DNA of 64,000 nucleotides. Origin: Brachycybe producta (Eukaryota; Arthropoda; Diplopoda; Playtdesmida; Andrognathidae). Position numbers and translations under genes: made by a program. Below the pieces are notes generated by a model. The model had not been told where the DNA came from and did not search any database. It worked only from the letters and a program-made list of their open reading frames with translations. Where the stretch lies: assembly GCA_036925085.1 (NCBI GenBank), contig JAUPFP010000001.1:21797437-21861436 (forward strand). Direction: 5' to 3'. Shown here piece by piece: positions 20,497 through 50,400 of this stretch (position 1 is the first letter of the stretch; the number at the start of each line of letters is the position of its first letter).

Positions 20497-23400
20497 TTAG
20501 GAAAGTAGAGACGGAGTTTCGACCATTTCCAAAAAGGACAGAAATGTTTGCGTTTCCATGTTCGTAAGTTGCGCCGTAGTTGCTCCTCCTTCTCCTTGTC
20601 CATTTCGTAACGTGACGTTTGAGTTAGTCTGCGTTTGAATGTCGACCAAACTAGAAGACGTATTCGCATTATTAAAATCGTAAACTGTTTGCGTCTGAAT
20701 GTTACAGAAATTTCCGAGTTCCGTAAATAGATCCGAAGTTTGAGTTTCCATATGCGATAATAATTGATCGTACGGAATCGATTCCAAATCTTCGGACGTT
20801 TGCGTTTGAATGTCCGCTTCGTTAGGCATTTCGCTTTCGGCGCCGCCACCGCACATTAAAAGTGCTTCGAAATCGACTTCGGTCTGCGTTTCGATGCTAC
20901 TTAACTGTTGTCGAACCGTTTCGGCTTCTTCGCAGACCGACAGAGGCAACTGATACTCCGCTAGGTTATCGAGAGCCAGATAATTACGTAACGGACTGTC
21001 TAAGAAACTATCGCAGATCGGATTCTTTGGAACGAATCTCATCGTACGAGGACTTGTTTGAGTTCCGGACGAAACGAGCTGAAAATTAACGTCGATATCG
21101 AGATCGTTGATCGTCTGACATAATTTATCTGTCATCGTTAACGATCCATCGTCAGACATTTGCCAGAGAAACTGGTTATCGTTTCTTTGGTAGACGTCGT
21201 TGTCGTACGATAAGAACGGTTCCGTTTGAGTCATTTCCGATCTAGACGGTTCTTTTGATGGAACCGTTACAATCGTTTTGCTTTTTTTCGTTTGCGTGCT
21301 GCAGCTTGTAACTTCGCGTCGCTGTCGCTTATTACGCGTTAAAGTCTGCGTCTCTGAACTGCGCTTTGCAGCTCGCTTCATTTGAGTGTCGTGTTTGACG
21401 GTGCGACACGAACAGCTACCGAGCCCTTCGGTCTGTGTCGTTGTTGTCCGTTTCGCGTTTGAAAACTGACAATTCGAGAGTTCGCTTAAAGCCATTGCTG
21501 CAACTGTCTTTAACGGTACCGTACTCAAAGGAGCCGGTTTCGGCAAAATGAGGCACGGTTTACGAACTGTCGTAGTTGTATTTGGTAACGATGACGACGT
21601 TGTATTGTCAAATACGACTACGATGGTTGGTTTCGACGTATTCGGCACTTCGGTGGCCACTGCAGTGATTTGTGGCTTCCGTTTCAGCCGTTGTTCAGCA
21701 GGAAGTTCGTGTTGCTTTCGATACGCGTGCGTTAGTAGCGCTTCCCGCTTGTTGAACACACTTCCACAGCTGCAATTGAACTGTTTTCCGCATACGATTT
21801 CGTGAGCTTTGAAGTCAGATGTGACGGCGAATTTCATTTGACATTTACTGCAAGAGAAGATTTTCTCGGCGTGGACCTTTCTATAATGCTGAAAAAGAAA
21901 AGAGAAAAACTCACTTAAGCTCATTTTATAGTGTAAACGCGCCGTTTTTAACCGAACTCTAATTATTCTGTCTTTCAGGAGAAAAATTATGATAAACTTG
22001 AAAGTGTTTTAGAAACTAGAAGGGTAGCTTAATCACTTAAGGATATTTTCATGTTGATATATCTTTCAAAATAAACTTTTAAAGTCAGTTTGAAAATGAA
22101 CGAACTTTAAACAAATAATGTTTTTTTCTTTAAATTATTCTTTATAAAAAGTTCATTTTGAAATATAGGAACTTGAAAATATTATTAAGTAATTCAGCTA
22201 TCCTTCTAGTTTCTAATGCTCGAACCACATCAAGCTGACAAAAATGCAACATGTGTTCGGGACAAAAACACAACAAAAACGCCAGAAAAAAAGCCGATTT
22301 TGAAATCAACAAACCTGAAACGACTGTCTCCAATACTCGAGACAAAACTACAACATATTTGCGTGACACAACACAAACAAATTTGTTGTTTTGTTTTTGT
22401 TTTTCTATAGCTGTCCCTACGTAAACTACGCAACTGTTCTGTTGTTGTTTTAAATACTAATTGTCCACAATTGCAACAGACAAGAGTTGACAAAAATGTT
22501 GCGTAATACTGAGACAAAACACAAACATTTTAATGTTTACCGACTTGCGGCGGAACATGGAAACAGTTTGTGAAATTTCAGACAAAACATAAACACAAAA
22601 GTCGTAGAAATGTTTTAGAATTGTCGCCAATTTGTCTCGAAACGCTGAGTTTCTGTTTTGTTTGTGTTTTGTCAGCTTGATGTGGATCCGGCCTAACATT
22701 TCTGCGACTTCTGTGTTTTGTTTTTGTTTTGTCTGCAATTTCACAAAGAATTTCATGTCCTTGTGCAAGTCAGTAAACATCAAAAGGTTTTTGTTTTGTC
22801 TCTGTATTATGCAACAATTTGTCAACTCTTGTCTGTGCAGTTGTGGACCCAGTTAGTATTAAAACAACAACACAACAGTTGCATAGTTTTAAACCCAAAT
22901 TTGTTTTTTTCAGAATTGTCACTAATTTGTCAGCAGTTACTCAAGACAAAACCACAACAAATTTGTGTGACACAACACAAACAAATTTGGGTTTTGTTTT
23001 TGTTTTTCTATAGCTGTCTCCTACGTAAACTACGCAATTGTTCTGTTGTTGTTTTAATACTAACTGTCCACAACTGCACGAGACAAGAGTTGACAAAATG
23101 TTGCATAATTCCGAGACAAAACAAAAAACCTGTTTCGATGTTTACCAACTTGAGCCGAAACAGGGGATTGTTTGTGAAATTGCAGACAAAACAAAAACAA
23201 AACACAACAGTCGCAGAAATGTTTTAGAATTGTCGCCAATTTGTCTCTTAAGAGGGTTACAGAGCGCCACGGACGTTTTTTTGACAGACGACATTATGAT
23301 TGCAGTGTCTGACATCAGAGGCGCCACTTGTATTGAATTAGCATAGACATAATGCTAATTTAAATTTCAAACATACAGTTAGGTTTGGTAGTCATTATCT

Positions 23401-24463: not shown

Positions 24464-27400
24464 TTTACCACCTATGTATAAAATGCCTAGGCAATATGCA
24501 AATCCACACTTTTTTTGCTAGTAAATATGCAAAATTCAGCAATTTAGGTCATGGACAAACAGAAATGTTTCAGGCAATTTTCAAAATCACTAACATTTCA
24601 GGCAATTTGCAAAATCACTATCATTTCAGGCAATTTGCAAAATCACTAACATTTCAGGCAATTTGCAAAATAACTAATGTTCTATGCAGTGCCAATTTTT
24701 TTAACTTTAAGGCAATGTGTTAAATACTCAGGCAATAGACAAAATTTAGGGCGTTTTAGGCAATGTGCAAAATTCGTAACTTATTTCAGAGAATATCTAA
24801 AATCACAAACTTTCCAGGCAACACACAAAATGACAACTTTTCAGGAAATTTGCAAATGATTTGCAAACCTTCGCGGGACAGATTTGCGAACCTTCGCGGG
24901 ACGGATTTGCGAACGCGCGCGGGACGGATTTGCGAACGCGCGCGGGACGGATTTGCGAACGCGCGCGGGACGGATTTGCGAACGCGCGCGGGACGGATTT
25001 GCGAACGCGCGCGGGACGGATTTGCGAACGCGCGCGGGACGGATTTGCGAACGCGCGCGGGACGGATTTGCGAACGCGCGCGGGACGGATTTGCGAACGC
25101 GCGCGGGACGGATTTGCGAACGCGCGCGGGACGGATTTGCGAACGCGCGCGGGACGGATTTGCGAACGCGCGCGGGACGGATTTGCGAACGCGCGCGGGA
25201 CGGATTTGCGAACGCGCGCGGGACGGATTTGCGAACGCGCGCGGGACGGATTTGCGAACGCGCGCGGGACGGATTTGCGAACGCGCGCGGGACGGATTTG
25301 CGAACGCGCGCGGGACGGATTTGCGAACGCGCGCGGGACGGATTTGCGAACGCGCGCGGGACGGATTTGCGAACGCGCGCGGGACGGATTTGCGAACGCG
25401 CGCGGGACGGATTTGCGAACGCGCGCGGGACGGATTTGCGAACGCGCGCGGGACGGATTTGCGAACGCGCGCGGGACGGATTTGCGAACGCGCGCGGGAC
25501 GGATTTGCGAAGCGCGCGGGACGGATTTGCGAAGCGCGCGGGACGGCTTGCGAAGCGTGCAAAAAGGCTTGCAAACTACAGAAAGGCTCTATAAGGTTCG
25601 CAAATCTGTCCCGCAAAGGTTCGCAAATCCGTCCCGCAAAGGTTCGCAAATCCGTCCCGCAAAGGTTCGCAAATCCGTCCCGCAAAGGTTCGCAAATCCG
25701 TCCCGCAAAGGTTCGCAAATCCGTCCCGCAACGGTTCGCAAATCCGTCCCGCAAAGGTTCGCAAATCCGTCCCGCAAAGGTTCGCAAATCCGTCCCGCAA
25801 AGGTTCGCAAATCCGTCCCGCAAAGGTTCGCAAATCCGTCCCGCAAAGGTTCGCAAATCCGTCCCGCAAAGGTTCGCAAATCCGTCCCGCAAAGGTTCGC
25901 AAATCCGTCCCGCAAAGGTTCGCAAATCCGTCCCGCAAAGGTTCGCAAATCCGTCCCGCAAAGGTTCGCAAATCCGTCCCGCAAAGGTTCGCAAATCCGT
26001 CCCGCAAAGGTTCGCAAATCCGTCCCGCAAAGGTTCGCAAATCCGTCCCGCAAAGGTTCGCAAATCCGTCCCGCAAAGGTTCGCAAATCCGTCCCGCAAA
26101 GGTTCGCAAATCCGTCCCGTAAGGTTCGCAAACAATTTGCAAATTGCCTGAAGTAAGAATTTTGCACATTGCCTAAAACACTGAATTTTGTCTATTGTCT
26201 GAGAAATTCTGGATTTAACACATTGCCTGAAAAGTTAAAAAAAATTGGCACACTGCCTAGAAAATTAATTATTTTGCACATTGCCTGAAAAGTTAGGAAT
26301 TTTAAAGATTGCCTGGAAAGTTTGTGATTTTACACATTTTATGAAAAGTCGATAATTTTGCACATTGCCTGAAGTTAGGAATTTTGCACAATGCCTAAAA
26401 CTCTGAATTTTGTCTATTGCCTGAGAAATTCTGGATTTAACACATTGCCTGAAAAGTTAAAAAAAATTGGCACACTGCCTAGAAAATTAATTATTTTGCA
26501 CATTGCCTGAAAAGGTAGTCATTTTAAAGATTGCCTGAAAAGTTTGTGATTTTACACATTTTATGAAAAGTCGATAATTTTGCACATTGCCTGAAGTTAG
26601 GAATTTTGCACATTGCCTAAAACTCTGAATTTTGTCTATTGCCTGGGAAATTCCGGATTTAACACATTGCCTGATGATTAGTATGCACATGACCTAAATT
26701 GCTGAATTTTGATTATTTACTAGCAAAAGAGTGATTTTGCAGATTGCCTAGGCATTTTATACATTGGCCGTAACATACATATTTATTCATATATACACAC
26801 ACAGATACATATAAATAATAGTGAATATGACATCATGTTCAAAAATAGCATTTGAATGTGACACTACATACATCCTTGGATAGATTAGATGGCTTGATGT
26901 TTCTCTATATAGAAAATACATTATTATTCTTTTTGTAATGTCTCCCTTGTTTATAAAATGTAGGCTGTCTGTTTCCATGGCAACCTACCAACTATGTTGA
27001 GACATAGCCTCCTATCAGGAGTTATGAGAGGCTATAGTTGAGAGGAATACAATCGAAATTTTATGCTGTCTCTTCTTTTCCTTCTTGCTGTTTTCTAATT
27101 TTTAAATTTACCCATCCCACCTTTTAGCAGAAACATGGCTCCAATTTTAAATTTGACAGTTACTATTGCATACTATAGACTATAGTAACTCTATAGCAAA
27201 TGCCTACAACTTGAAATTTGATGCCAACGGTTTTTTTCATGAACTTGAAGGTAAGTTTCTAAGGTTATATATGAATATTTCAGCATAAAATTTTAGATAT
27301 TTATAAAACCCCACCAGATCTTTTAGTTGGATTGAACAGATTTTTTCTAGCATGCATGGAAATAGAGAAAATTAAGTTTTTGTCAGCACTTAAACCCACC

Positions 27401-29471: not shown

Positions 29472-32400
29472 ATGTTTCCGGTTTGTGTTTTCGCGTTGTT
29501 TCTCACCTTTTACGTTAAAACAATCGTTTCAGGTAAGAATTCTAATCACAAAACGATGAAATTGCATCGTTAATTTAACGCTGTGCCGACAAAATCACGA
29601 TTTTAACGGTTGAATTTATCAGTTTACAGTTTGAAATCAGCGGCAAAATATCAGATTTCTAGATAATAAATGCGGAAATATGACTTGAAATGCGACAACT
29701 GCAATCACGGTTTTTTTTTCGTTGTACAGTCGAGGTCAAAAGTTCGGAATTTTTCAATGACCCTCGCCTTCCTAGCGCGCTAGGTTGCGCTACGCGTGAC
29801 TCAATCACGTTACTGTTATGAGAATCAACTAAGACTGTCATGACAGTAATGGGAGAAAGAGTTTATAGCAATTTAAGCTACTGTTATGGCAATTAAGTTG
29901 TCTTAATAATCAGCTGATTAAGCAAAATGGAAAGAAACTAGAAAGTGTTTTAGAAACTAGAAGGGTAGTTTAATCACTTAAAAGTAATTTTCATGTTTTG
30001 CTATCTTTCAAAATAAACTTTTTATAGACAAAAAATTATTAAAACTCACATAAAAAGTTTATTTTGAAAGATATTAAACATGAAAATACCCTATTAAGTG
30101 ATTGAGCTACCCTTCTAGTTTGTAAAATACTTTCTAGTTTCTACATTCAAGTTTTATTTTGCACCTATTTCTATTGTTATAAGAAAATATTTTCATTAAA
30201 CTATTGTTATAAACTTGAAAAACTTGATTAATTACGGTTTTTTTTTCCAATCAAAAACACTGGTTAGAGGCTAGAACTCTAGTTGATAACTTATAGTAAC
30301 CAGACATCTAGCCTCTAACCAGCCTTTTGATAAAAAAAAGCATAATTGCACTTTAATGATGATTCCTTCACAATTGGCACTTGGGCCACAGATTGAGAAA
30401 CATTGTCTTGACACTGCATAAAAATCCGAGCCCTAATCATAACGTAGTGTTATAGATAGCTACTGCTATAACATTTATTGTTATGACTAGGGTCCGGATT
30501 TTCATGCAATATCAAGCAAAATGATGTTTCTCAATCTGTGGCCCAAGTGCCAATTGTGAAAGATCAATCCCAGTTTAGAACAACCAACAATTGTTTTATA
30601 TAACAAAAATACCTGGTTAGAGGCTAGAATTGTATTTATTCTTCCAGACAACTAGCCTCTAACCAGCCCTTTTGATTTGAAAAGAACATAATTGCAGTTA
30701 AGTTACTCTAATGATGATTACTTAACAATTGGCACTTGAGCCACAGATTGAGAAACATTTTGCTTGATTTTGCATGAAAATCCGAACCCTAGTTATGACA
30801 ATATTTTTCATAATTTTAAAGAAATACTAAACTCTTCAATATTAGAAGAAAAAATTATTATAATTTTTTCGTTTTCTCGTTGATGAAATTAGTTCAAGTG
30901 ATCGAAGGTCCCGAGTTTGTTTCGGAACCACCGTCAAGATCGGACTTTTCAAACAACACCGGAGCTAAATTGGAATGTTCGGCTCGTGGAACTCCGCAGC
31001 CGACTGTTGTATGGACACTTCTAGATGGCAACGCAGTTACGGATGTCTCTAATCTACGCCAGGTTCTATCCGATGGGACGATCACTTTTCTTCCGTTTCG
31101 AGCCGAGCATTTTCGGCCAGATGTTCATACGGTCGGTTATCGTTGTGTTGCATCGAATGCGGCTGGAACTATCGTAAGCCACGATGTTCATATCAAAGCA
31201 GGTTCGCAATTATATTTTCGTATAAAAAACAGGATTTTACTATGAATTGAAGAAATCGAATCGGCATTCTTTTTTATTGATATGAATCATAATTTTTGTT
31301 GACAAAAATGTCGAAAATTATTATTTCATATTAGAATAATATTAATAAAAAATATAATAATTGTTGTTGAATTTAAAAAAACAAACCTAGGATTTTCGTT
31401 GAAGAAAAATATAAAAATTGTAATTTTTATTAAGAGAAATATAAAAAGTCACAATTTTTATTTAAGTTATTTTAAAAAATAATGATTTTTTTGATAAAAG
31501 TAACCAAAAATGGCATAATTCTTGGTTAAGAAAAAATCAAAAAAGGTATAATTTTTGTTAAAACTATTTTAAAAAAGCATAATTTTTGTTAAAAATATTT
31601 TTTTAAAAGGCATATTTTTATTAAAAATATTCAAAAGGCTTAATTTTTGTTAAAAATATTCGAAAACGGTTTAAATGGCATAATTTTTGTTAAAAATAAT
31701 CAAAAAAGACAAATTTTTGTTAAAAAAATAATCAAAAAAGGCGTAATTTTTGTTAAAAATATTTTAAAAAAGCATAATTTTTGTTAAAATATTTTTTTAA
31801 AAAAGGCAAATTTTTTTTTAAAAATATTCAAAAAGGCTTATTTTTTGTTAAAAATATTCAAAAACGGTTTAAACGGCATAATTTTTGTTAAAAAATAATC
31901 AAAAAAGGCGTCATTTTTGTTAAAAATAATCAAAAAGTAATTATTTTTTTGTCAAAAATATGCAAAAATTAATTATTTTTTATAAAAAAAATATTCAAAA
32001 ACGCATAATTTTTGTTAAAAATATTCAAATAATATTTAATAAAAAAGTTAAATTTTGATTCAAAAATAATAATCAAACATTTGGGGGAAAAATGAAGATT
32101 TTAATTTTTGAAACAAATTTTAAAAAAATTACGTTTTTCCTTTCTATCAAAATAAATAACTTGCCGTTTGTGTCTTGTCTTTTTCAGTTTTGGCTGTGGA
32201 ATACGACGTGCACGTGTACGACGAGTACGCAATAAACGGAAACACGGCAATGTTGAAATGTCACATTCCGAGTTTCTTGAGGGATTACGTTTCGGTTGTT
32301 TCGTGGATTCGTGACGATACGATGAAGATAATGGCCACCATGGACACGGGTCGGTTCCCCCCCCCCCCCACCACTTAAATCACGGCTTACGTGGTTCTTA

Positions 32401-35400
32401 ACATGTAAACGGAACCCATTCTGTCTTTCAGAGAAGCAAAATGAAGAGAAACTTGAATGTGTTTTAGAAACTAGAAGGGTAGCTCAATCACTTAAGGATA
32501 TTTTCAAGTTGATATCTTTCAAAATAAACTTTTTATGTCAGTTTGAAATAGAACCTAATATAAGCAAGATGATATTTTTTAATATTTGTCTAAAAAAAGT
32601 TTATTTTGAACAAGATATTGAACATGAAAATATCCTTAAGTGATTGAGCTACCCTTCTAGTTTCTAAAACACTTTCTAGTTTTTCTTAATTTTGCTCTTG
32701 TTGAGAGACAGAGAAGCTGCTCGTAAACCATCTTAAACGAACCAGTTACGGTTTCGATCTAAACTCTAAAAGTAACAGGTCGATCTTAAATTTTGCGCGA
32801 TTTTTTTCCTTTTTTTTTCTTCCCCACAGATGGTAAATTTTGGTTGTCTCCTCATGGAGATCTTTACGTAAAAGATGTCGGAACATCGGACAAGGGAAGT
32901 AGTTACAAATGTCAAACGTTTCATCGGTTGACCGGTGAAACTAGGACCAGTTCCACGACGGGTCGGCTCATTGTCACGGGTTGGTTCAACCTAACTCTCG
33001 TCTTTGTGATTTTTATCTGTTTTAAAAGTGATCAGATGGTTCAATTTGAATTTGAATGATTACTCTGCAAGCAGCCCAGAGGGCATGTAGCAGAGGGACA
33101 ATTTAGTCCAAAAGCAGCAGCATTGTCAAAATAAACATTTTTTTTCAAGTTGTGGTTCAAATTGCAAGTTTTGTGGAATTCATTTTTGTGTGATTCGTAT
33201 TTTCTGATTTCGTAGAACCGAGAGACAACATTCCGCCTAAAATTGTTGATAGTGGGCCGTTGACGGTTTCCGTAAGAGAGAAGGAAACCGCTTTCTTGCC
33301 GTGTATCGCTCAGGGATATCCGAAGCCGAAAACTACGTACGGAAGAGGCTAGAAAGCCGCATGGAAAGTATTCTAACTTTGGCTTTTTGTTTTTTGCTTT
33401 CTCGTACTCGTACGTTTCAAGGTGGTTTCAGAAGAAAGAGTCGCAAGACGTTCCTCTAGTGTCGTCTCGTATCAAAGTGACCAATCAGGGTTTAATCATT
33501 CACGGAGCTCACAGTTCCGACAACGGACTCTACGTGTGTCAAGTCAGTTCCAGCACGTGGACGACCACAAGAGAAATCAAACTTCAGGTTATCGGTGAAT
33601 TGAAACTTCGTCTGTTTTACAGTTGCCACTTTTTATGGACTGCGTCAAAGTTTTAAGAAGAAATTTAAAGTTTTTTTACAAACTAGAAGAGTAAAAACAT
33701 TCATTTAGGAGGGAATGCAAAGTTTTGTACAAACTAGAAGAGTAAAAGAATGATTTTAGAGAGAATTCAACAAGAAATTGGATGTGTTTTAGAAACTAGA
33801 AGTGTAAAATGGATTATTTAAGAGGGGATTTAGAAAACAATTGAAAATGTTTTAGAAACTAGAAAGGTAAAAGAAATGTATTAAATTGACGAAATTTAAG
33901 AAGAAATTGAAATTGTTTTAGAAACTGGAAGATTAAAATGAACCATTTTAAGAGGGAATTTAAGAAGAAATTGGAAGTGTTTTAGAAACTAGAAGAGTAA
34001 GATGGAAGTATTAAAAAGAAGAAATTTACAAAGAAATTGAAAGTGTTTTAGAAACTAGAAGAGCAAAATGAGTCATTTAAGAACGAATTTAAGTAGAAAT
34101 TGAAAGTGTTTTAGAAACTAGAAGGGTAAAATGAGCCATTTAAGAGGGAGATAATAAATAATAAAACAGAAAAATAAACTCAAGTGTTTTATTACATTTT
34201 GCTAAAACATTGAAATAATATCGCGAATTTTAACAAACACGTTTTTTTTTTAATTTTACACAATGATAAATAATTTTTTGACGCAAATGCTAAAGAAAGT
34301 GTCTGATTTTGCACTTTTCTGAGAAAAAAAAACCCTTAGCTTCAATAAGATATCTTAAGACTTATTTGAAAAAATGGACTTTTGATTGTTTCAGATCTTG
34401 TTGAAATCAAGATCGACCCTTTGAAACAGACTTTAAACGTAGGCCAGTCTTTGGCACTTCATTGTGAAGTTCCGAGACGCGAAACGGCTCAGATAACTTG
34501 GTTTAAAGACGGGCATTCGATAACTAAATCACACGTCCTCATATCTTATCACGGAAGTTCTTCCGAACTGAAGATCGATTCGCTCAAATCGGAGGACAAA
34601 GGAATGTATCAGTGTTTTACGCAGAGTGGTGATCAAGTGGCTCAGGGTGCAGCACAAGTGTCTCTCGGCGGTACGAAAAATCGTTACGATTTATTTTTCG
34701 AGTAGCTTTATGTTGATCTCGTTTTTTGTCGTTTCAGATTTTCATCCGGAAATTTTGACTGCGTTCGAAGGATCTACGCAAGAACCCGAAACTCCAATCG
34801 TCTTGAGTTGTTCTTCGATCGGTAATCCCGAACCGATCATAACTTGGTTTCTGGATGGTGTTAGCTTGAATGGCGACGGACATCATTTGACGATCGAAAA
34901 TAGAGTCGATAACGACGGAAACAAACACAGCGTACTTAAGATCGAACGATCTAGAACCGATGACGGAGGACTCTATTCGTGCGAGACGAGCAATCGGCTT
35001 GGAAAGACTCGAAGTTCCGCCAGAGTCAACATTTACGGTACGTGTTTGATGGTAAGTGCTGTAATTGCCTTACCCCCAGCTCTTTCGCTTGTTTGCTTAT
35101 ATTTTTATCGTAAAATTTTAATTTATCAAAAGTAACTGGATAATAGTGGGTATATTATTAATTTTAATGATTAATAACTTACGTGATGTTCATATTTTAA
35201 GACGACGGCGTTTGAAAACGACTACACTTTGCGCAGAATAGCTTCAAATGCACTAGGGCTTGCGTATATTCTTAGATGTCGTGAAAATGCCTCAACTGGC
35301 CCAAGAATTTCCCCAAAAGCTTAAAAAAAGTGAAAAATTTCAGTAATTTCTAAAAATTCTTAAAAATGGAAAGAAAGAAAAAAAGCAAAATTCAGTCTTT

Positions 35401-38400
35401 GCTTTTTTTCAAAAATCCCTCTAAATCTCTAAAATCCCTACAAAGGCACCAGGTACAGGTAGGCTCAACTTGAGCCAGTTGAGCCTACCTTGTGCCTTTG
35501 TAGGAATTTTAGAGCTTTTTATTATTCTTAAATTTAATAAGTCACAAAAAGGGGCAAATGGAAAAAATTGGACAAAAATCACATTTATTGAATTCCCCCC
35601 CCCCCCCTTCCAAAAAAAAATTGCCAAATTTAAAAAAAAATATTAAAATTTTCCAGAATCTCTAAAATGATTCAGGTCAAAGATTCACAAATGTTTAAAA
35701 TTAAAAAAAATTCTTTAATTCAAGTGTTAAAGTGCTCAACTGGCCTTAGAAATCTCAATAGACATTTAAAAGTACAAAGGTTAAATTACTTTTAAAATTC
35801 CGACATTAAAAAATGAATAAATATTGAAAAATATTAAAATTCTCTGAAAAAACTTAAAGGTGGGTCCAGAGACTCCAGACTAGAACAGAATACCGAACAG
35901 AACATGTTTGGCGACCATTTTCAAAGAACATGTTTGTTGTTCTAATTAATGTGGCCGGAGTTTCCAAACTTGAACAGAACATGTTTGCAACATGTTCCCA
36001 GTTAGTAACCTTGAGACGTACGTACAAACTACTCCTGGCCCGAACACAAACATCCTTTGATGTGATGTTTAAAAACCGACAACTTGTGGATCAAAGCCAA
36101 ACAGAACAACGAACAAAATTTGTTACAGAGAAATGTTTGGCAAACTGTTCACACGGTTCGTTGCTCTGTTCTAGTCTGGACCCGCCCTTAGAGGCCTTAG
36201 CCCCAGAAGATCTAAACAAAGGTTTAAGAATTTTTATTTAAAAAAAATGGGATAAAGCATATCTACGGAAAAATCCATAATTCAAAATCAATTTTTGAAA
36301 ATTATCTGTTATTAATGAGAATTATTATTTGCGAAATTGCCGTAATTACTGAAAAGGATTTTTTTTATTAATAAATAGCCTATTTTTGTTTCATTTCGAA
36401 CAACCTTTATTTGTAAGTCTGGCTATTTTGCGTTTTTAATTATTCGTTTTTTTTAACATTGCTTTTAATTTAAAGCAAAAATGAGGGAATTATGTAAACG
36501 GATGTCTCCGGTGTAACTGTAACCACAGTATCAAGCACTCATATATTTACCATATTACCTGGTTACTTTTACTTTGTAACTTTTGAACAATTAACTCTGC
36601 TTGGGCTTTCACAGCACCTTGAGTTTTTACATTTAAAAATAAACGAGTTGTATCGATAATTAGGTCCTCTGCAAGTTCGCAACGTTCCACAAGTGACAAC
36701 CGTTTCCGGAGAGAATGCAATCTTAAGTTGTCCTGTTTATGGATATCCAATAGATACGATTGAATGGCGTAAAGGTACAGACTTTAACCTATATGTTCAG
36801 TAATAAAACAACATTAAACACTGCACTTTTGTTTTTCAGAAATGAGGAAGTTGCCTTTTAGTGTTCGTCAAGAAGTGTTTCCAAATGGAACGTTGTTCAT
36901 CAAATCCGTTTTACGAAAACAAGACAGCGGAGATTACGTTTGTATGGCAAAGAATTCGAAAGGCGAAGAAGTTCAAGGGAATTTGCAAGTGGCCGTTATG
37001 GGTAATCGTTTCCTCTTTTTGTTGTTCATATGTGCTTGAAGTTGGAAAGAAATAATCATTTGTTGTGCTCAGTTTCCGAGTGATTTTGAAGTTGTTCGAG
37101 AAGCGTTCTGCGTTATGAGCAGTGCTCGGATTTTTATGCAATATCAAAGAAAAAGTTTCTCAATCTGTGGCTAATGTGTCAATTGTGAAGCAACAATCCC
37201 AGTTTAGATAAACCAATAATTGTTCTTTTTTTAATCAAAAGCCCATGGTTAGATGCTAGAACTCTATTTGGTAACTGATAGTAACCAGACATGTAGCCTC
37301 TAACCAGTGTTTTTGATTAGAAAAGAACAATAATGGCTGTTGCTTTTATGATGATCTTTAATTCACAATTGGAAATTGGGCCACAGATTTAGAAACATTT
37401 GCTTGATTTTGCATAAAAATCCGAGCTTTATTTATGAGACGCATTTCATCTCAAAATGGGCCAAATGTTTATATCGATAGTTGAATTTTTGATCATTTGA
37501 TTAAATTTCGACATGAATTGGTGTCCTGTACGTAGAAAGCTCTTCAAGATATTAAAAATCGCTTAGAAACTCAACACATTCTAAATTATATTCAGCCAAA
37601 TATATGGATCTTTTTTTATGAAAATTAGAAAAATATTTTTAATTTTTTTTTAATTTTTCTTAAATATAAATATGTAAATTTTTAATTATCCAATTTAATT
37701 CTGAAATTTAAAAGTAGTAGAATAATATTAAGAAGATTTTAATTAAGATTAATAATTATGCAAATTTTAAAATTAAATACAGATGCATTTATTGTAAATT
37801 TACACAAAACATAAATTGTTCTATTTTTATAATTAAAAATGTAAATAGGTAAATTTTAATTAACTATCTTACAAGTTCTGAATTAAGTTGGCAGAATAGA
37901 TATTTATTTCTATTTTTCAAGCAAACGTTTTTCAAGTGAAACATTTATGAAAAAATTCAAAGTATTTTACAAACTAGAATAGTTATTGATAATGCTAAAA
38001 GTTTTTTCAATGATGATATCTTTCAAAATAAACTTTTTATGACAGTTTGGAGAAAAAATGTCAATGGAAAAACCTAAAAACGCGTCATTTTTCAAACTGA
38101 ATTATAAAATTGTTTATTTTTTAAGATATTGCCACGAAAAAACTTTTAACATAATCTTTTACCATTCTAGCTTTGAAAACAATTTGAATTTTATCAGAAT
38201 GTTCTTTCTTTTAAAAACGTTCGTATGACGTTTTTGCATCCGAATTTTATAAAAAACGTCTATGGAGCATAGCATTAACCACTATGGTGGCGCCGTCCAT
38301 GGAGACAAAAATAAAATAAATATTCATAAAGCCACCTTAAAATTCGTAATTATTCAAATGATAATTAAAATTCAGCTTTAATTAAATCTCGAATCAAATC

Positions 38401-41400
38401 TCGATTGTTGACAAAATTAGGTCCGATGAAGCCCTACATAAATTATCGAACATGCCCTAGTGACACTAGAATGCCACTAGTCTTACCTGTGAGTACCGAA
38501 TATCATTCATGCTTACTGGTAGGCAACCAACTCATTTGACTAAGTGACAAACTTTTTAACAAGGATTTATTTAGTCATATGGGCAAAGTGCCTTCTAGTA
38601 AAAAAAAAAAAAAAATAGGGCCCTTTTAAATGTTCTTAGCCAACAATTTCTGCAAGTTGTTTTATGCAATTTTATTTTGCAATTGTTTAAACTTTCAGTT
38701 CCCCCAAAGATATTGCCCTTTGCTTTCCAAGATGAATTATTACGAGAAGGGATGCGTGCGAGGCTGCAGTGTGTAGTCAGTGAGGGAGATTCTCCTGTCC
38801 ACATAGAGTGGCTCAAAGACGGAGAGCATTTGGATACTGAATCTGGAATAGTTGTCCAGGCCATGGACGAATTCTCCAGTATTTTGGCCATTAAAACTGT
38901 GACCCCAAGGCACAATGGCCTCTACACATGCATTGCTCGAAACACTGCCGGCGTAGCCTCACACTCGGCCCAACTCTCCGTTAATGGTAATTTGTTGGTT
39001 TTTTACAATGTTTTCAGCACTTCCAAAGATAATCCCGTTCGCATTCCAAGATGATCAAAATTTTAAGGGCATGCGTGCACATATTACTTGTGCCGTAAGC
39101 CAGGGAGATCTTCCTATCACGTTCTCGTGGTTGAAAGATTCCTTTTTGGTGCAGCCATCTTTGGATGTCAAAGTGGCAAGTTACGATCGGCACTCGAGTG
39201 CGCTTAGCATCGAAAGCGTAACTTCGGCACATTCCGGAAACTATACTTGTGTCGCTAGTAACCTTGCTGGAGAAGCCAGCTTTACGGCTCAGCTTCTTGT
39301 TCAGGGTAAACATGTTTCAAATTCCCCTTCGTCTTTTCGTTGCAGTTCGGCCAAAGATTATGCCATTCTCGTTCCAAGATCAGAAATTTTCTATTGGTGG
39401 CAACATTGCTGTTGTTTGCATGTTGACCGAGGGTGATCCTCCTTTGATTTTTAGCTGGACGAAAGATGGTTTGCCCATCGAATCGTTGTCAGGAGTTAAC
39501 GATGTCACTGCGAGTGACTTTTCTAGTATGCTAACTGTCAAAAATGCGACACCGTCTCACAGTGGCAACTACACTTGCTCTGTGAGAAACACCGCTGCAA
39601 CGGCCGAATTCACGGCAGAGCTTAAAGTTAACGGTAAATGAAATCGGATTAAGCAATTTGTTCCCGTGTTCGTTTTGCAGTGGCTCCGAAAATTGTCCCA
39701 TTTTCATTTGGTGGTGACCATTACTTTGTCGGTATTTTGGCTCGGATCACTTGCGTGGTCTATCAGGGAGATCTGCCGCTAAATATACAATGGCTGAAAG
39801 ACGGCTTGCCTTTAATAACTGACTCTGGCCTCTCCATTCAAGCGATGGACGATTTTACGTCCGTACTTACTATTGACAATATTCAGAGCCATCATACGGG
39901 CAATTATACGTGCATTGCCAGGAATGCGGCTGCAGCAGCTAGTCACTCTGCCCAACTTGTTGTCAAGGGTAAATATCCCATTTGCAACTATTTATTCATT
40001 GGGTGCTTTGGTTTTTCTTTTAACATGTGAAGTGCCGCCAAAGATTGTGCCGTTCTCGTTTCAAGACGAACAGCTCGTGGCTGGCATGTTTGTCAGAGTC
40101 TCGTGTGTTGTGAGTCGCGGTGATTTGCCACTGAACATGACATGGCTTAAAGACGGCAGTCCCATTTCTAGTCTCCTTAAAATTAGTACTAGAATGATTG
40201 ATGACTACTCTAGTCTTTTGTCCATTGACTCTTTGAGCCTTGAACACAATGGCAACTACAGTTGTTTTGTGAGTAATACAGCTGCTACGGCCACCTTCAC
40301 GGCACCACTTATTGTCAATGGTAAATCATTACATTGTCAAGTCATTTAGAAAAAAATTAATATAATTCTTGAAAACTGTGAGAATGACCAAATTTACATG
40401 CTTGATTACATAATTTTGCAACAAAATTGTGCTTAGAAAGATTTTTGCACGAACAGACTTGATATTATTGGTCGTTTGTTCCAAGGGTTGTTCGGCAATG
40501 GAATTTACTTCCAGATGATTTTGTGCATAAGGAAAATTTCATCTTGTGGGATCATTAGGGTGGAATTCAAACAAGACATATCCATATGTAGCAGTGTTGT
40601 ACTGTATGTAAGCATGGGGGAAATTGGTATTTTGGTATTTCATTAAGAGCAAAGGTACCAAACTTCCAAAGACCAAATTAATTATTGGATCATATAACGT
40701 GATTTACCTAACTAAAATGTTGGTGTGTGACGTTTGCCCTAAAGACACTTGCCTACAGTTTCCCTAAAGCCGTTTGCCCTAAAGAGACATTTAATCTAAA
40801 ACCACTTGCCTTAAAGGACGTTTGCCCTAATCAGCAGTCTAAATATAAGTTAATTAGCGTTAGGGGATGTGTCTTTAGGGCATGTGTCTTCAGGTCAAAT
40901 GTCTATATGGGTCAATTTTATGGTTTATGCTTCTACAATGTTGGTGCAGATTATAAATATTTCAAACCAAGTAAAAAAAAAAACAGTAATAAACACTTCC
41001 AAACTTGTACTGGATTTGTGTTTTTCAGTGGCAATTCACCGACACTTTATTATTCCTTGCATGTTCTGATCATTTTCACATTTTTCATTATTCCGAAAGC
41101 ATATACCAACATAAATTTACAAGCAATGAAATTTATAAAGATTCATAGAAATGGCCAAAGTAAATTTAAAGTGTATTTGAAATATTAGGCCGGATCCAGA
41201 TTCAAGCTGACAAAAGTGCAACATGAGTTTGAGAGAAAAAACAACAAATATGCCAGAAAAAGCCAATTTTGAGAACAAAACTAAAGTGAATCAACTGTCA
41301 GCAGTTAGTAAAGACAAAACCACAACAAATTTGGGTTTTTTTCTTCTATAGCTGTCCCTACGTAAAGTACGCAACTGTTCTGTTGTTGTTTTAATACTAA

Positions 41401-44400
41401 CTGTCCACACTGCACAGACAGAGTTGACAAAATGTTGCATAATATTGAGACAAAACAAAAACAATTTCATGTTTACCGACTTGTGCCTGGACATGGAATT
41501 GTTTGTGAAATTGCAGACAAAACAAAACACAAAAGTCGCAGAAATGGTTCAGAATTGATGTTCATCCAGCCTTAGATACAAAATACAACTAAACCATGTA
41601 CATGGTGGTCGAATTGTTTGATAATTGTTCTCAAAAATTCATATCTCCTAAATAAATAATGCTAAATTGTTGGAAGACTAAACGACTAAGAGTCTAAACG
41701 TTGATTTATATGATTGATATATTTTAAATATATTAATGTAATTCATAATGGAGCGCTTTTTTGTTTTTGTTATTGTTGTTTTACAAGCAAAGATCATCTT
41801 ATTACTTGTCATATTAATGTTGGTATATGGTTTAATATTTGTTGAAAACATGTGTATATATTGCTTTCATAAAAATGTTCATACATTTTTAAGCAAATTA
41901 CTATAATTATTTTTTTCAGTTCCACCGTTTTGGTCTGTGAGACCAAATTACGAAGTTGCTGCAGTTGTTGAACAGAATGTTGTTCTTCACTGTCAAGCTG
42001 AAGGGTTTCCAAAACCGACGATCACTTGGTCAAAAGGACAGAGTTAGTTCGATTTTTCATTGTCTTTCTGATATTAATAAATTAATTAATTTTATATCTA
42101 GGAGAAATTTTTGAAAACTCTTGAATACCCGTAGTTTCTGAAATTTTTAAAACGACTTTTAAGAAAGAAATTCAAAGCGCTTTAGAAACTAAAAAAGTAA
42201 ATAAATCACTTACATGTAAAATGAATTTTCATGTTGATATTTTTTTTTAAATGAACTTTTTATGGCAATTAGAAAAAAAGAAAGTGCGAGAATTTGAAAT
42301 TTGCTATAAAATTTTATTTTGAAAGATATAAATTTGAAAGTAATTTTTGAGTTATTCTTTTGCTTTTCTATTTTCTAGTGTCAACTTTTAAAAACGTTTA
42401 TTAGAAACTAGAATAGCTAAAAGTGTTTCCATTACGGTATTGTTCAAAATGAACTTTTTTGCCATTTTGGAAACAAGTTTAAGAAGAAGTTGTAAATTAG
42501 AAGAGTAAAAGATCATTCTGAAAGTTTTATCATAATGACATCTTTCAAAATAAACAATTTGGAATAACGTTTAAGAAGAAATTCAAAATTTGTTTAGATA
42601 CTAGACAATATTTTTTCGACTTTTAGTCCAATCTTAAAGTGAAATATAAAAATGTAGAATTTGAAATTGTAGTAAAAAGTTTATCTTTAAAGATATCATA
42701 ATAAAAATTCCGTGTAAATAATTCATTTACTCTTCTAGTTTCTAAAATACATGAAATATTTTTTTCATGATGTCTGCTTCTGAAAGGCAGAATAAAAAGA
42801 GTTTTTATTGAATTTTTCTATTTTCTAAATATGTCGGCCTTTAACGTCTCTGAAATATTTTATGTAGAGGAGTCAACAATAAGTGGCAATGCCGTTGTTT
42901 TTCCAAACGGCACTTTGCTTATTTCCTCGATCAAGGAAGAACAAGAAGGTTATTACGTCTGTAAAGCGAATAACGGCATCGGAGTTGGTTTGGACGAAAT
43001 TGTTCACATTAAAGTTTATGGTTCGTAAACTGTAAGCAATTTTTGTGATCGTGGTTTTTGTAAATGAGAAATTGTAACTTTGTTACAGATCCACCTGTGA
43101 TCGTTTACAAGTCCGATAATCAAACCATAGCAATGGGAACCAGTGCGGCTCTTAGTTGTGTCACCAAAGGAGATTTGCCACTTAATATCACTTGGGCTGT
43201 CGATGGAAAAACTTTGGGATCAAAGTTATTGAATAGGTCATTTTAAGAACAAATTTTAAATGTGGCTATTTGAGAAAAAAATTGCTTAAATATGTTAAGA
43301 CATAACTAGAAGTTCGGTTATTCGGCATTTTGAGAATAACTTTCAGCTGGTTTTAAAGTGTCATGGTTCTTGGAACTTTGGTTATTTTGTCTAAGGAGAA
43401 AACTTACGAGAGTATTAGAAACTAGAAGGGTATTTTAATGTTGACATCTTTCAAAATAAGCTTTTTTTATGACAGTTTGATAAATTTCCGAACTTTTAAG
43501 TAGTCGAATATTTTTCAAACTTACATAAAAAAGGCTTTATATAAAGATATTAACATTAAAATGCCCTTCTAGTTTATAAAACACTTTAAATTTCTAATGG
43601 ATTCAGCTACCGTTCTAGTTTTTAACTTAAACGCAGAAAGAAGAAATAGAAAGTATTTTAGAAACTAGAAGTGTAGCTCAATCACTTAAGAGTAATTTCA
43701 TTGTTGATATCTTTCAACAAATAAAAAGTCAAAGGTGGCTGGGATTTCATCGTAATGTATTTTCTATGAAAAGACGGCAACCTTGGCACACAGTTATAAG
43801 TCGCTTGTGTGCCAAGGTTGGTGTTTTTTCATATAAAATACATTACGATGACACCTCCGCTATGTACGACTTCTTTTTGTCGCCAAAACGTTTTTCAACA
43901 GTCGCTTTAGTGTTGCTCTTCTGAAAAAAAAATACGTCTTAAGCTCGCTGATATTTATCAGCTTCTCTCTCTCACTAATAGATACAAGATCAAGGAGGAT
44001 CAAGCTCCGAATGGTCTCAGTTCTGAACTTATGATCACGAAGGTTCACAGAGAGGACACGGTATTGTACACATGCACGGCACAGAATGCATACGGAGAAG
44101 ACAATGCTGTCATGAAGCTTACGGTTCAAAGTAATTCGTTCGAATAACTTAAAGATTTGTCCTCGAACGGTTTTAACTTTTAGCTTTTTTGTTATAATCG
44201 TAAGGTCAACCGGATCCTCCCCTCGGAATGTCCGTCGTTGACATTGGTAATCAGGCTGTGAAAGTGTCCTGGAAAGAACCATTTGACGGCAACAGTCCGC
44301 TTCAGAAATACACCATCGAATATAAACAGAAAGCAGGTTTGAATTTTGCCTTCTGTTGTTGGTTTTCTTCTTCCTCTATTGGTCTACTAACTCCATTATC

Positions 44401-47400
44401 TTATAGGAATTGTTCAAAATAAAACGGTTCACGGAAGTCAACAGTTTGCAACCGTAACAGGGTTCCAACCTTCGGCCACTTATTTCTTTCGTATGTTTGC
44501 CGAGAACATTTTCGGACAGAGCGACGCTACAGAGTACATCAGTGTTGTTTTAGCGGGCGAAGGTAATAGAGAAATGCCGTTTAAAATATTTTATTTTGCG
44601 TTAGTGCTTTGTCTAAATTATCCTCTCCCCCTCAGCTCTACAACATGCTTCTCCAGCTAATTTGGAGCATTTAAGAGGGGGGCTCCATAGAAAAATATTT
44701 GTGTAAATTGCAAGGTAGATGGCGCATGCAACCTCCCTAGGTGGCCAACTCCACGCTTTGCTAATTAGTTGAAATTTTTAGCTCTAAAAGCGTCCACGTG
44801 ACAAACTTACCAAGAACATTGGAGTGAAGAGAGCACGTGTAGAAATAGCGATGACGCAATTAAAAGTTTGCATGAAAAAAAAAAGAAACGTGAGTCAGAG
44901 ATGAAGAGTGTCACCAGTACTATTTCAATGGGAGGGCTAGTGGCGCCGTCTATTGCTACATGGACAAAATAAATGTTCTACTTTCATTCTTAATTATCTT
45001 TCAAGTTTCGGCCGTCTTTTTTTGGAAAACAACATTCGTGAAGTTGAGCGCTCCCAAGTCTTCTTGGGGCTTTTTAGAGCATTTAGATATTTTTTCACTT
45101 TTGTGAGCTTTTTCATGTCTTCTGAGGCCATTTGAGCTTTCCTAAGGCTAAAGGTTGGCTCTCCTCTGAGCCAACCTTCGGCCTTTTGCAGATAATCTAT
45201 GTTTATTGTAATTTTAAGTTTACGAGAAAAAACATTTATAATAATTTATTACACCAACAGTTCCGTCTGGGCCACCAAAGAACGTCGACGTTCAAGCTCT
45301 GGATTCGCAAACGGTTAAAGTATCTTGGCAGCCTCCGGCTCGCGACACTTGGAACGGCGACATTCGTGGTTATTTCGTCGGCTATCGAGAGTCTTCGTCA
45401 ACTGATAATTACGAGTTTCAAATGCTCGAAGTTCCGATCGGTTACGACAAGGGACTCTCGTTTACGATTCCAGAACTGAAGGAGTTTACGAAATATGCGA
45501 TTGTTGTTCAAGCTTTCAACGATATCGGAAAGGGTCCACTTTCCGAAGAGATTCTTGTTATGACGAGCGAAGATGGTTCGTGTCTTCTTTTTGTTTTCGA
45601 AGTTTCTCATCGATTTTTTTTTATGGTTTTTATGTGTCTTTAGTTCCAAGTAAACCTCCCAGTGATGTCAGTTGTTCGGCTCAATCTGCCGACACGATCT
45701 TAGTCAAGTGGAAATCTCCAGCTTCCGATTCCGTGAACGGCATTTTACGTGGACATCGTGTTCTGTTTTGGCCGGTCGATGCTTGGGATGGTAGGTAAGG
45801 GATTTCTTCTTATTTAAGCTGAAATGTTTCAATTTTTTTTGTCTCTCGCTTGTTTTTTATCGTTCTTGCATCTTAATTTTATTCAATTGTTTTAAGAAAA
45901 TTTAAAAAAAAAACACTGAAAATATCTTGCTTTTAATATAAAAAAAATCCGTTTAACACAAAAAAATATGTACGTCCCTTTACATTTTGTGTTAAAAGGT
46001 TTGCAATGTACAGTGAAAATCGTTTAGCACGAATTAAATAACATGAAAACCCAGATAAAACGAAATATACTTTCAGTCTGTTTATTTTAGAAAAGCGTAA
46101 AAATATACGAAAAAAATATAACATAGTCTCTTAAATTTAGTATTAAAAGATTTCTACTTTACAATGAAAATCGTTTAACATGAAAACGGATAACATGAAA
46201 TAAATTTCAGGTATTGTTTTTTTAGAACAGTATTAAAACATTTTCTATTTACACGAAATTCGTTTAATACGAAGAAAAAAAAATATTACGGTCCTTTCCA
46301 TTTTGTATTAAACGGTTTTCATTGTACAGTTGAAAACCGTTTAAAACGAAAATGGATAACAAGAAAAATCGGATAACATGAATTATAGTAACCATCTAGT
46401 TATTTAGAATATCATAAAAATTCTTTCTTTTAACACAAAAAAAAATCATATAGTTCCTTTCATTTCATGTTAAACGGTTTCCACTTATCAGTGAATACCT
46501 GTTTAACACGAAAACGGATAACAAGAAATATATTTTCTCACTCTGGTTCCTGAGAAAATAACAAACATTTTTTTTAACACGAAAAATATTCTAGTTTGTT
46601 TTATTTCGTGTTAAAAGGTTTCCATTGCAGTTTTTTTTTTCCAGTTCTAGAACTCATTGATTAAACATTTAATTGATATTAGGTCGTCATATCGGAATGG
46701 ACAACTCGACAACAACCGCAACAACGATGAAGAACTTAGCACCCTTTACAAACTATAGCATTCAGGTGGTTGCGTTTACGCTTGCCGGAGACGGAATTCC
46801 GAGCCGACCGGTCTACTGTCGCACCTGGGAAGATGGTACCCGATCACTTTCTTCTAGAATATGTTTAAGCTTTGCTTTGTCTTAAGCAATTGGTTAATAC
46901 GGTCACAAGTCTCAAGTTTAAAATTAACGATACTTTTGTTTATTTCAAGTTCCCGGAAGTTTAACCGATGTGAAGTGTGTTCCGGGGTCTACAGAATCTG
47001 TGGTCGTATTTTGGATGCCACCGCAACACATTAACGGACACATAACACATTACACGGTCTACGTCGAAGATCCGAGTAACGGATGGCAGGTTTGTGTGGT
47101 TTTTTAACAAGTTTTTGTGAGAAAACAGAAAGTTCTTGTATTTTATCAAAAAAACATTTTGGTTTTCGAGCAAATAATAATTACAATGAACGTTAGAAAA
47201 TAAATACAATGATGAAAAAATCTGAATTAACAATCAAGAGTTCGTAAATCAGGTGTTGCTCTTGTCGATTTCAGGCGAAACATAAAGTGTTAGGTCATTC
47301 TTCGAACCACGAAGTTCAGAGTTTGAAACGGTCTTTGCGTTATAAGTTTTGGGTGACGGCATCTTCGGTTCTCGGCGAAGGAAAACCTTCTCAAGTTGTT

Positions 47401-50400
47401 TACTGCGGCCCAGCTGCTTCTTTTGGTAAACAGATTTCGTCGTTTCTCTCGCGTATTCGTCAATCGTCACTTTTGACGGTTTTGTTTTCTAATTGTTTCA
47501 GTTTTACCGAAATGCGTCACTTTTAATCGAACTTTTAAAGTGAAACAGGGAACGAAAGTTTCGATGCCGTGTCCGGCCGTCGGTGTTCCGACTCCGCAGT
47601 TTACTTGGCTTCAAGGGTCATTAAACTCTTTATTTTTCTCGGCTTTTCAGTGATTCAAATCTTGTTTTATTTTATGTTTTAAACTAGAAATCAGGAAGTT
47701 GTCGTTAAAGAACGGATTCAGATTCTTCCTGAAGATAAATCGCTCGTGATTAATAATGTGCAAAGCGAAGATGCTGGCAATTATAGCTGCCAGGTTAAGA
47801 ATGATTTTGGAGACGATCAAGTGAATCACGTAGTTGTCGTTCAAGGTGAATCACTCATTATATTTTTTTGTTAAAGCGTTTTACAAACTAGAATTTGTAA
47901 ATAAGATTGTCTTTCAAAAAAATATTTAGAAGTAATTTTAAAAAGAAATTCAAAGTTTACTAGAAACTATAATATTAACGACATAAGCTGAAAGTAATCT
48001 CGTGACGATATTTTTCAAAATAATTTTTTATTCCAATTTGAAAAAGTCCAACAAAAGAAATTTCAACTTTAAAATTTGTCAACATTTTTTTAAGATTAGG
48101 TCTGAGGTTTTTCAAGCTTCGATGAAAAGCATATTTTAAAAACATCGTTATGAAAACATTTTCTGTCTTATTCTTTGACTGTTCTAATTTCTTAAAAACA
48201 ATTTGAATTCTTTCTGAACGGTGCTTTTAAAAGCCAATTGTGTGTTTGTTGAGAATGACTGGAGACTCAAAGATTGAACACTTTTCATAAGAAACAAATC
48301 CTTTATTGTCTTTTACAATAGTTCCTCCTGCGGCTCCCATTCTTTCCGTTACGATGGCCACATTTAACTCGATCGGTTTAAGATGGAAACCTCGTGCGAA
48401 CGGAGACAGTCCCATTCAAGGTTTAATTAAAAACACATCCTCGAATAATAATCGTTTACTTATCATATTTATATTTAAGCTCACTTGAATTCTCACTTAT
48501 TCATCGTGTTTTTCAGCGTATTTTTTTGAGAGAAAAAATGTTGATAACTTTTTAAAATAAACTTTTTATCTCCGTTTGAAAATGTCCAAATTTTACGAGA
48601 CGATTTTGGCCAAATTTCAAGTGAAAAAAATAACGAAAATGGAGAATTTTAAATAGCCATAAAAATATATTTTAAACCAAATATTAAGGTGAAGTTTTTC
48701 TATTTAGAAAAAAAAAGTATTGAAAACGTTTTGGAAACTAGAAGAGTATAATATCTTAAAGATGGCAAAATTTTAGTTTTTGAACTTTTTTCGCTCAACT
48801 TGAAATTAAAAGCGAAAATGGAAAATTTCAAACATGCCGGAAAAAGTTCATTTTAAAATATATCAATGTTAAAAATTATATTAAGCTGGAATTCCTCTAT
48901 TTAGACAAAAAATATTGAAAACGTTTTAGAAACTAGAAGAGTATAATATTTTAAAAATGGCAAAATTTTTAGTTTTTGAACTGAAAAGTACTGGAAGTCT
49001 TTGAAAGATACTGGAAATCGTTCATTTTAAAAGATATCAATATAAAAATAACTCGTCTAGTTTATTTATTAATTTTTCGCCTGAAAGACAGCATAACCAG
49101 AGTTCGAGAGACGCGTTTACACTTTAAAACCTTAACGTAATACATTTTTTTTCTAAGGATTCGTTTTACGTTATAAACCGGAGATCGGACCGTGGGAAAC
49201 CATCGAACTTCAACCTTACCACGATTCTCACACTTTGAGAAACCTTCGTTGCGGAACGTCATACGAAATAACCATTTCGGCAGCGAATGAAGTTGGATCC
49301 GGAGACAATTCCGACGTTCTCACGGTGTCGACAGACGGTGGTGGTTAGTCTCGAGGAGTAGTTAGTATTGATAGAGAATCTAGTTTTTTTTGGAATATTT
49401 TTTTTCTTTGTATCTTAGTTCCTGTGGCTCCTCCTGTTGCGCAATTGATCGAAGAGTCGACAACTCACGTAACTCTTCATTTGGACTCTTGGGTCACGAA
49501 TGGATGTCCCATTTTATATTTCACCGTTGAATACAAGTCGAGACGAGCCAACACTTGGACTCTAGCCTCGAAGGGAATTCGTCCGAACCAACGTATGCTC
49601 GTCGTAGCTGATCTGACCGCAGATGCTTGGTACACTTTACGAATGACAGCGCACAGTACGGCCGGAACGACGGTCACTGAATACGATTTCTCAACTGTCT
49701 CTCTCGACGAAGGTTTAGGTTCGACCGATGAAATTTCTTACAATCGGCGTTTATATATATTTTTATTTATTTGTTTTTATAAGGAGGAGATTTCAAAATC
49801 AACGATTTGCAGGAAATAACCGGTGTTATTCCTTATGTGGATTTTCCAACTTTTGGTCCTATTTTGATTTGTGCTACCGTAATCATAATTTGTTTGGTCG
49901 GAACTTTGATTTGGGTTCGCCGGCGACGTAACGAACAAGATGCAAAAGGTCTTTTAGTTGTGCTTTTTTTAAATTAATGGCTGCATTAAGTTTCAGTAAG
50001 ACTCTTACGGTGGTTTTACAGTGTAAAACGCCTCACGAACTCTTGTTTGTTCTGTCTTGCAGGTGCAAAATGAAGAGAAATTAGAGTGTTTTAGAAACTC
50101 GAAGGGTAGCTTAAACACTTAAGGCTAAAACTTTTTATTTCGGTTTGAAAATGACCCAAATTTAAGCAGAAAGATCTTTTTTTTTAAATATTTGTTTATA
50201 AAAAGCTCATTTTGAAAGATATCATCATAAAAATACCCTGAAGTTATTGAGCTACCCTTCTAGTCTCTAAAACACTTTCTTAGTTTCCCCGTAATTTGGC
50301 TCTTCTGAAAAACCGAATAATCAAGAGTTTGGAAATCAGCTGTTCATAAACCTTTTGTTCGGCTTTTTTTTTAGCAGCTAAAGAGACAACCGATGTCCGA

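Follow-up and report, generated by a model that had tools for sequence, protein, structure and literature searches.

Dscam is a cell-surface receptor gene of the nerve and immune systems. The gene described here carries five consecutive exons for one and the same Ig domain, Ig7, which raises the question of whether its transcripts take up one of these exons or several and of what would make the choice. For the Dscam Ig7 (exon 9) cluster, it is still debated how cells choose a single exon out of a long array. The reading favored here, at a probability of roughly three in four, is that these are five alternative Ig7 exons of a canonical arthropod Dscam of the Strigamia maritima type and that most transcripts carry exactly one. 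The anatomy of the array and the published centipede genes indicate that it is likely built for mutually exclusive splicing; the gene would then yield about five receptors differing only in Ig7. All positions are those of the window, the whole 64,000-base stretch of DNA that was analyzed. It contains no N bases, which points to, but does not prove, a long-read assembly.

The host gene

The modeled part of the gene lies on the forward strand at 30916 to 50500 and extends from Ig1 into the beginning of the cytoplasmic tail. The model starts and stops at arbitrary points within exons (the signal peptide exon and the remaining tail are left out), and the exon borders are predictions placed manually on the basis of open reading frames and splice signals. 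A Dscam protein has 10 Ig and six FNIII domains, with Ig10 between FNIII 4 and 5, and a single transmembrane segment. Pfam finds nine I-set and six fn3 stretches in the modeled protein, and four of the fn3 stretches precede the last Ig; the tenth Ig receives no I-set call, and one transmembrane segment is recognizable by eye. Up to Ig9, the modeled protein is colinear with Ig1 to Ig8 of Dscam1 (3dmk) in one 767-residue stretch (E 6e-187), and the array occupies the Ig7 position in this alignment. As predicted, the gene has the domain architecture of Dscam and appears canonical and single-copy outside the array. The first-half exons of Ig2 (32188 to 32349) and Ig3 (33216 to 33336), both on the forward strand, are single, tblastn of the window returning one copy of each and no second copy of either. 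A tblastn search with the modeled protein likewise found no second Dscam gene in the window outside 30000 to 51500.

The array is flanked on the same strand by the second exon of Ig6 (36840 to 37001), which has the common donor upstream, and by the first exon of Ig8 (41920 to 42042), which has the common acceptor downstream. The Ig6-Ig7.1 intron (37002 to 38698, forward strand, 1,697 bp) contains repeat copies at 37112 to 37437 and 37930 to 38280, and the Ig7.5-Ig8 intron (40321 to 41919, forward strand, 1,599 bp) contains one at 41185 to 41557. The first of these is a palindromic repeat of about 300 bp that could fold into a long hairpin in the pre-mRNA; similar copies lie at about 8.8, 30.2 to 30.8, 57.6, 62.6, and 63.6 kb of the window. 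Copies of the repeat in the downstream intron are found near 5.8, 14.5, 22.2 to 23.2, and 54 kb.

Other parts of the window contain further repeats and neighboring reading frames. Two adjoining arrays of 23-bp units (24858 to 25554 and 25593 to 26132) have long open frames on both strands, and the stretch from 24858 to 26132 was rejected as a gene and classed as repeat. A tandem 21-bp unit in about 43 copies (51430 to 52336) lies just past the end of the modeled Dscam. Neighboring frames encode a WH2 motif (6380 to 7564, forward strand), a segment of Rpp40 of RNase P (12593 to 12928, reverse strand), and an ASCIZ-type zinc finger (20500 to 22008, reverse strand). None of 4,227 Rfam families reached its gathering score in the 64-kb window, and a tRNA search of the window with bacterial settings gave none.

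Anatomy and identity of the Ig7 array

The array consists of five consecutive predicted exons on the forward strand, each 288 bp long and of phase 1-1 (5/5), with AG/GT borders. Copy 1 lies at 38699 to 38986, copy 2 at 39018 to 39305, copy 3 at 39346 to 39633, copy 4 at 39681 to 39968, and copy 5 at 40033 to 40320, and the whole array fits in 1.6 kb. The exons are separated on the same strand by introns of 31 bp (intron 7.1-7.2, 38987 to 39017), 40 bp (7.2-7.3, 39306 to 39345), 47 bp (7.3-7.4, 39634 to 39680), and 64 bp (7.4-7.5, 39969 to 40032). The first-pass annotation had claimed five Ig7 exons of this length and phase with introns of these lengths, and its coordinates were exact; the positions that it gave for the acceptors (38698, 39017, 39345, 39680, and 40032) are the last bases of the introns, not exon starts. 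Each exon comprises 95 full codons with split codons at both ends. The acceptor of copy 4 scores low on a matrix built from the gene's own sites, and that of copy 5 ends in GTGAAG. Chance would not produce five intact Ig7 exons of equal length and phase, all with splice signals. No further Ig7 copy was found in the 64-kb window by tblastn; the remaining matches were weak and represent other Ig exons of the Dscam gene or chance-like similarity. No relatives were found among 64 pattern matches in genome contigs or among seven in viral contigs.

All five copies score above the Pfam cut-offs for I-set and Ig_3. They align with each other gap free, and both cysteines and the core tryptophan are among the 26 of 95 columns that do not vary. 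A profile of the five copies scores 85.7 bits against Ig7 of Drosophila Dscam1 (3dmk, residues 619 to 711) and 87.6 bits against Ig7 of human DSCAM (6zr7), and these are the best single-domain matches among the best three chains aligned. Titin (3b43) comes first in the profile ranking only because its score adds up six domains; the highest-scoring of them reaches 41.7 bits by itself, and titin was rejected as the top match. AlphaFold modeling of the five copies gave two good and three poor models (48 to 52). The model that was kept, that of copy 1, has a mean pLDDT of 87.5, and its top match in the PDB is Dscam1 Ig7 (4wvr) with a TM of 0.95; ranks 1 to 14 of 14 are all Dscam or sDscam chains. 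The identification of the cassette as Dscam Ig7 is supported by tblastn, the profile search, the match of the AlphaFold model, and the colinear Dscam1 alignment. The number of N-glycosylation sequons (38701 to 40319) differs among the copies, with none in 7.1, one each in 7.2 and 7.4, and two each in 7.3 and 7.5.

Intron spacing

The spacing within the array was compared with that of the 27 other predicted introns of the gene, including the two that flank the array. The shortest of these ordinary introns is 65 bp, and 11 of the 27 are 65 to 85 bp long. A steric limit near 50 nt for the distance from donor to branch point is cited in PMC7969005, and a criterion of under 50 nt for the same distance is used in PMC5740500. 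When every adenosine 9 nt or more upstream of the intron end is allowed as a branch point, the greatest distance of a candidate from the donor is 21, 15, and 22 nt for the 31-, 40-, and 47-bp introns, respectively, as against 45 to 96 nt in the comparison introns of up to 130 nt (n = 12). The best branch motif, scored with a hand-made motif that yields candidate sites, lies 18, 15, 18, and 54 nt from the donor in the four array introns, compared with 27 to 91 nt in ordinary introns. Since some ordinary introns fall below 50 nt by best motif, this organism may tolerate a shorter distance. With the farthest candidate branch adenosines at 15 to 22 nt and a threshold of about 50 nt, the array introns together would hardly be removable in series.

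The 64-bp intron is a different case. Its branch-like motif, TTTTAAC, is the one 54 nt from the donor, but just 9 nt separate it from the acceptor end, and the next adenosine is 29 nt from the donor. The gene handles introns of about 65 bp, so this intron cannot be called too short, and it may be spliceable. The first-pass annotation had proposed that introns this short may block joins between neighboring exons; the proposal is supported for the 31-, 40-, and 47-bp introns, whose candidate branch adenosines lie outside the range of the gene, and is uncertain for the 64-bp intron, next to which ordinary introns of similar length are common. Ten forward joins between copies are possible: three would be blocked, the 4-5 join is doubtful, and the remaining six require introns of 359 to 1,046 nt. 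Spacing therefore leaves the non-adjacent joins unblocked, a point absent from the earlier proposal.

The reading frame gives no further protection. Whichever exons are combined, their lengths preserve the frame, and the Dscam model is stop free in eight of eight combinations (each copy alone, none, copies 1 and 3, and all five). Because every subset is in frame, decay of faulty mRNA would spare double inclusions, and because non-adjacent joins are also unblocked, a second layer of control would be needed if use of the exons is exclusive. Retention of an inter-exon intron leads to a stop within 3 to 44 codons after the exon in four of four cases, and intron retention was rejected for that reason. 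An incompatibility of mixed major (U2) and minor (U12) splice sites was rejected as well, since the donors around the array are all of the GTAA type and match the U12 consensus at only three to five of eight positions.

Possible selection of a single exon

In the favored reading, the 1-2, 2-3, and 3-4 joins would be blocked sterically, as the geometry of introns and branch points suggests, and the second layer would keep joins rare between copies 4 and 5 and between any copies that are not adjacent. This layer might hold back the array as a whole and free its exons singly. Release could depend on exon-specific proteins or on weak or exon-internal RNA pairing, and a scheme of this kind appears likelier than strong docking at one shared site.

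In another mechanism, well known from exon 6 of insect Dscam1, selectors compete for RNA pairing with a docking site; such a system, with one site and five selectors, is possible, if improbable, here. According to PMC8042237, which cites work on Srrm234, the docking sites of exon 9 are disputed, and the selectors of beetle exon 6 may lie partly in exons. Both flanking introns were scanned against the intron segments, exon starts, exon ends, and whole exons of the array, with 30 shuffles each, and no site in the flanking introns that pairs with all five copies gave a signal in eight segment tests and two whole-exon tests. The upstream intron near 37331 pairs with the exons slightly better than chance: against whole exons, its sum is reached by 4 of 30 shuffles and its weakest link by 3 of 30, and against exon ends 5 of 30 shuffles reach the value of this intron, in a series of ten sum tests in all. 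None of the tests stands out, however, and planted sites were mostly detected. A planted site of 16 nt exceeded 2 SD of the shuffles in 6/6 trials, both with no mismatch and with two; sites of 14 nt with two mismatches and of 12 nt with one mismatch did so in 5/6 each, and sites of 12 nt with two mismatches in 3/6. Strong, unbulged docking sites would show in such a scan, and weak or bulged ones would not. The 31- and 40-bp introns leave little room for selectors (the inter-exon introns are too short for them in at least two places of the array), and the flanking introns contain repeat copies, both of which also weigh against this mechanism.

Spacing itself might do more than block neighbors. 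The array can be treated as a one-dimensional exclusion chain whose introns are two-state switches. If the introns act independently, enumeration of the 16 states gives one exon in five states, two in 10, three in one, and none in no state. If the introns were coupled, a single boundary would pick one of the five exons without any docking site. This idea is speculative and rather doubtful, but if it is true, spacing would run mutual exclusion in a cluster larger than a pair. Steric spacing alone, in which each short intron holds a complex either at its left donor or at its right acceptor and non-adjacent pairs are common, is unlikely. It draws on the intron and branch-point geometry, on an enumeration in which at least one exon is always defined, and on the absence of a docking signal in the scans. 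However, a single exon results in only 5 of the 16 states, so mixed Ig7 pairs would be the norm, and the 64-bp intron is near the ordinary minimum of the gene; the published transcripts of centipede genes suggest mutual exclusion instead.

The array is able to separate these models. Spacing alone predicts no junctions between neighbors and many that skip one exon, and a choose-one mechanism predicts few of either. Its five exons in 1.6 kb are small enough for a complete minigene. By contrast, insect Dscam arrays of about 30 kb are described in PMC8042237 as too large for one.

Age and use of the copies

The Ig7 copies share 40 to 54% protein identity. Synonymous change is saturated in seven of 10 copy pairs and amounts to 1.7 to 3.0 in the other three, for which dN/dS is 0.16 to 0.35. 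Copies this old with unbroken frames suggest that all five have been used. The Ig7 donors lie at the 69th to 85th percentile relative to the 26 other donors of the gene, so the copies look usable. The acceptors of copies 4 and 5 rank at the 4th and 19th percentile of 26, respectively, on matrices built from 26 sites each of the same gene, and these two copies could be rarely or unequally used. The low acceptors would also fit a gene that uses just one or two of its copies while the others decay, but that has a small chance of being correct given that none of the five copies has a stop or frameshift despite near-saturated synonymous change.

If several copies, or all five, were included in series, receptors with up to 14 Ig domains would result. 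The arithmetic of the first-pass annotation on this point is correct, since all five together are in frame in the modeled gene and any copy number keeps the frame. Nevertheless, serial inclusion is very unlikely, as it needs removal of the 31-, 40-, and 47-bp introns with a branch spacing outside the gene's range. Alternative promoters, one per copy, have next to no prospect here: tandem Ig7-type cassettes are known in chelicerate sDscam (described in PMC4835542), but gaps of 31 to 64 bp cannot accommodate a promoter plus a signal-peptide exon, and the array lies inside the gene, downstream of Ig1 to Ig6.

Ig7 of Drosophila Dscam1 takes part in like-to-like binding. The five variants might serve in self-recognition or immunity. 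Variable columns show no significant concentration on the assumed ABED binding face (permutation P of 0.39 and 0.45), with the face and the inward and outward positions assigned by eye. The pattern of variation therefore lends no support to a role in binding specificity.

Comparison with known Dscam systems

A literature search found no published account of exactly this array, and the excerpted springtail and horseshoe crab Dscam papers make no mention of Ig7 arrays. Mechanistic parallels are steric mutually exclusive pairs, of which OGDH exons 4a/4b and the exon 17 pair of Drosophila Dscam are said to be examples. In these pairs the branch point is too close to the upstream donor, as the candidate branch points appear to be in three of the four introns here, but they comprise two exons, and five in a row leave the non-adjacent joins unblocked. 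In chelicerates, the 5' cassettes of sDscam are likewise tandem variable Ig7-type units. Those cassettes occupy the 5' end, have promoters of their own, and encode an N-terminal Ig, whereas the exons described here are single, internal, and without room for promoters. Membership in sDscam was rejected because it needs 5' cassettes with their own promoters and no Ig1 to Ig6, and here Ig1 to Ig6 are present. For chelicerate Dscam, the excerpted text of PMC4835542 reports no similar internal array beyond two alternatives.

Exon 9 of pancrustacean Dscam1 (Dscam-hv) resembles the array in encoding the whole of Ig7 by alternative exons at the same position of a colinear protein. Dscam1 differs in having arrays for Ig2 and Ig3 as well, and its Ig7 exons number in the dozens (33 in D. 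melanogaster), compared with one, one, and five here. Assignment to pancrustacean Dscam-hv was rejected, since arrays for Ig2, Ig3, and Ig7 are all required and only Ig7 is arrayed. Dscam-L2 (the Drosophila Dscam2 type) likewise has alternatives for Ig7 only, with two described in PMC4244043 and five here.

The closest likeness is to the centipede S. maritima, for which Brites et al. 2013 is said to be the primary paper on the Dscam paralogues. As summarized in PMC4244043, 40 Dscam genes of this species carry two to five Ig7 exons with no duplication of Ig2 or Ig3, and their transcripts suggest mutual exclusion of the Ig7 exons; mutual exclusion is also stated for at least one of its Ig7-array genes in a passage of PMC5465998. 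Only one Dscam gene is present in this 64 kb. The first-pass annotation had regarded the locus as a possible minimal version of the insect system, a view that gives way to the centipede arrays of two to five exons for Ig7 only, already published (PMC4244043). The predicted gene shares with those of S. maritima, as summarized there, a canonical Dscam with a duplicated Ig7 exon (five here, two to five there) and single Ig2 and Ig3, and no difference was found in these points of exon number and domain makeup. A centipede or another myriapod is therefore the likeliest host; in S. maritima itself, this would be one of the genes already counted. Judged by its predicted exons, the array is of a kind already published, that of the centipede Dscam genes with Ig7 arrays, rather than a new one.
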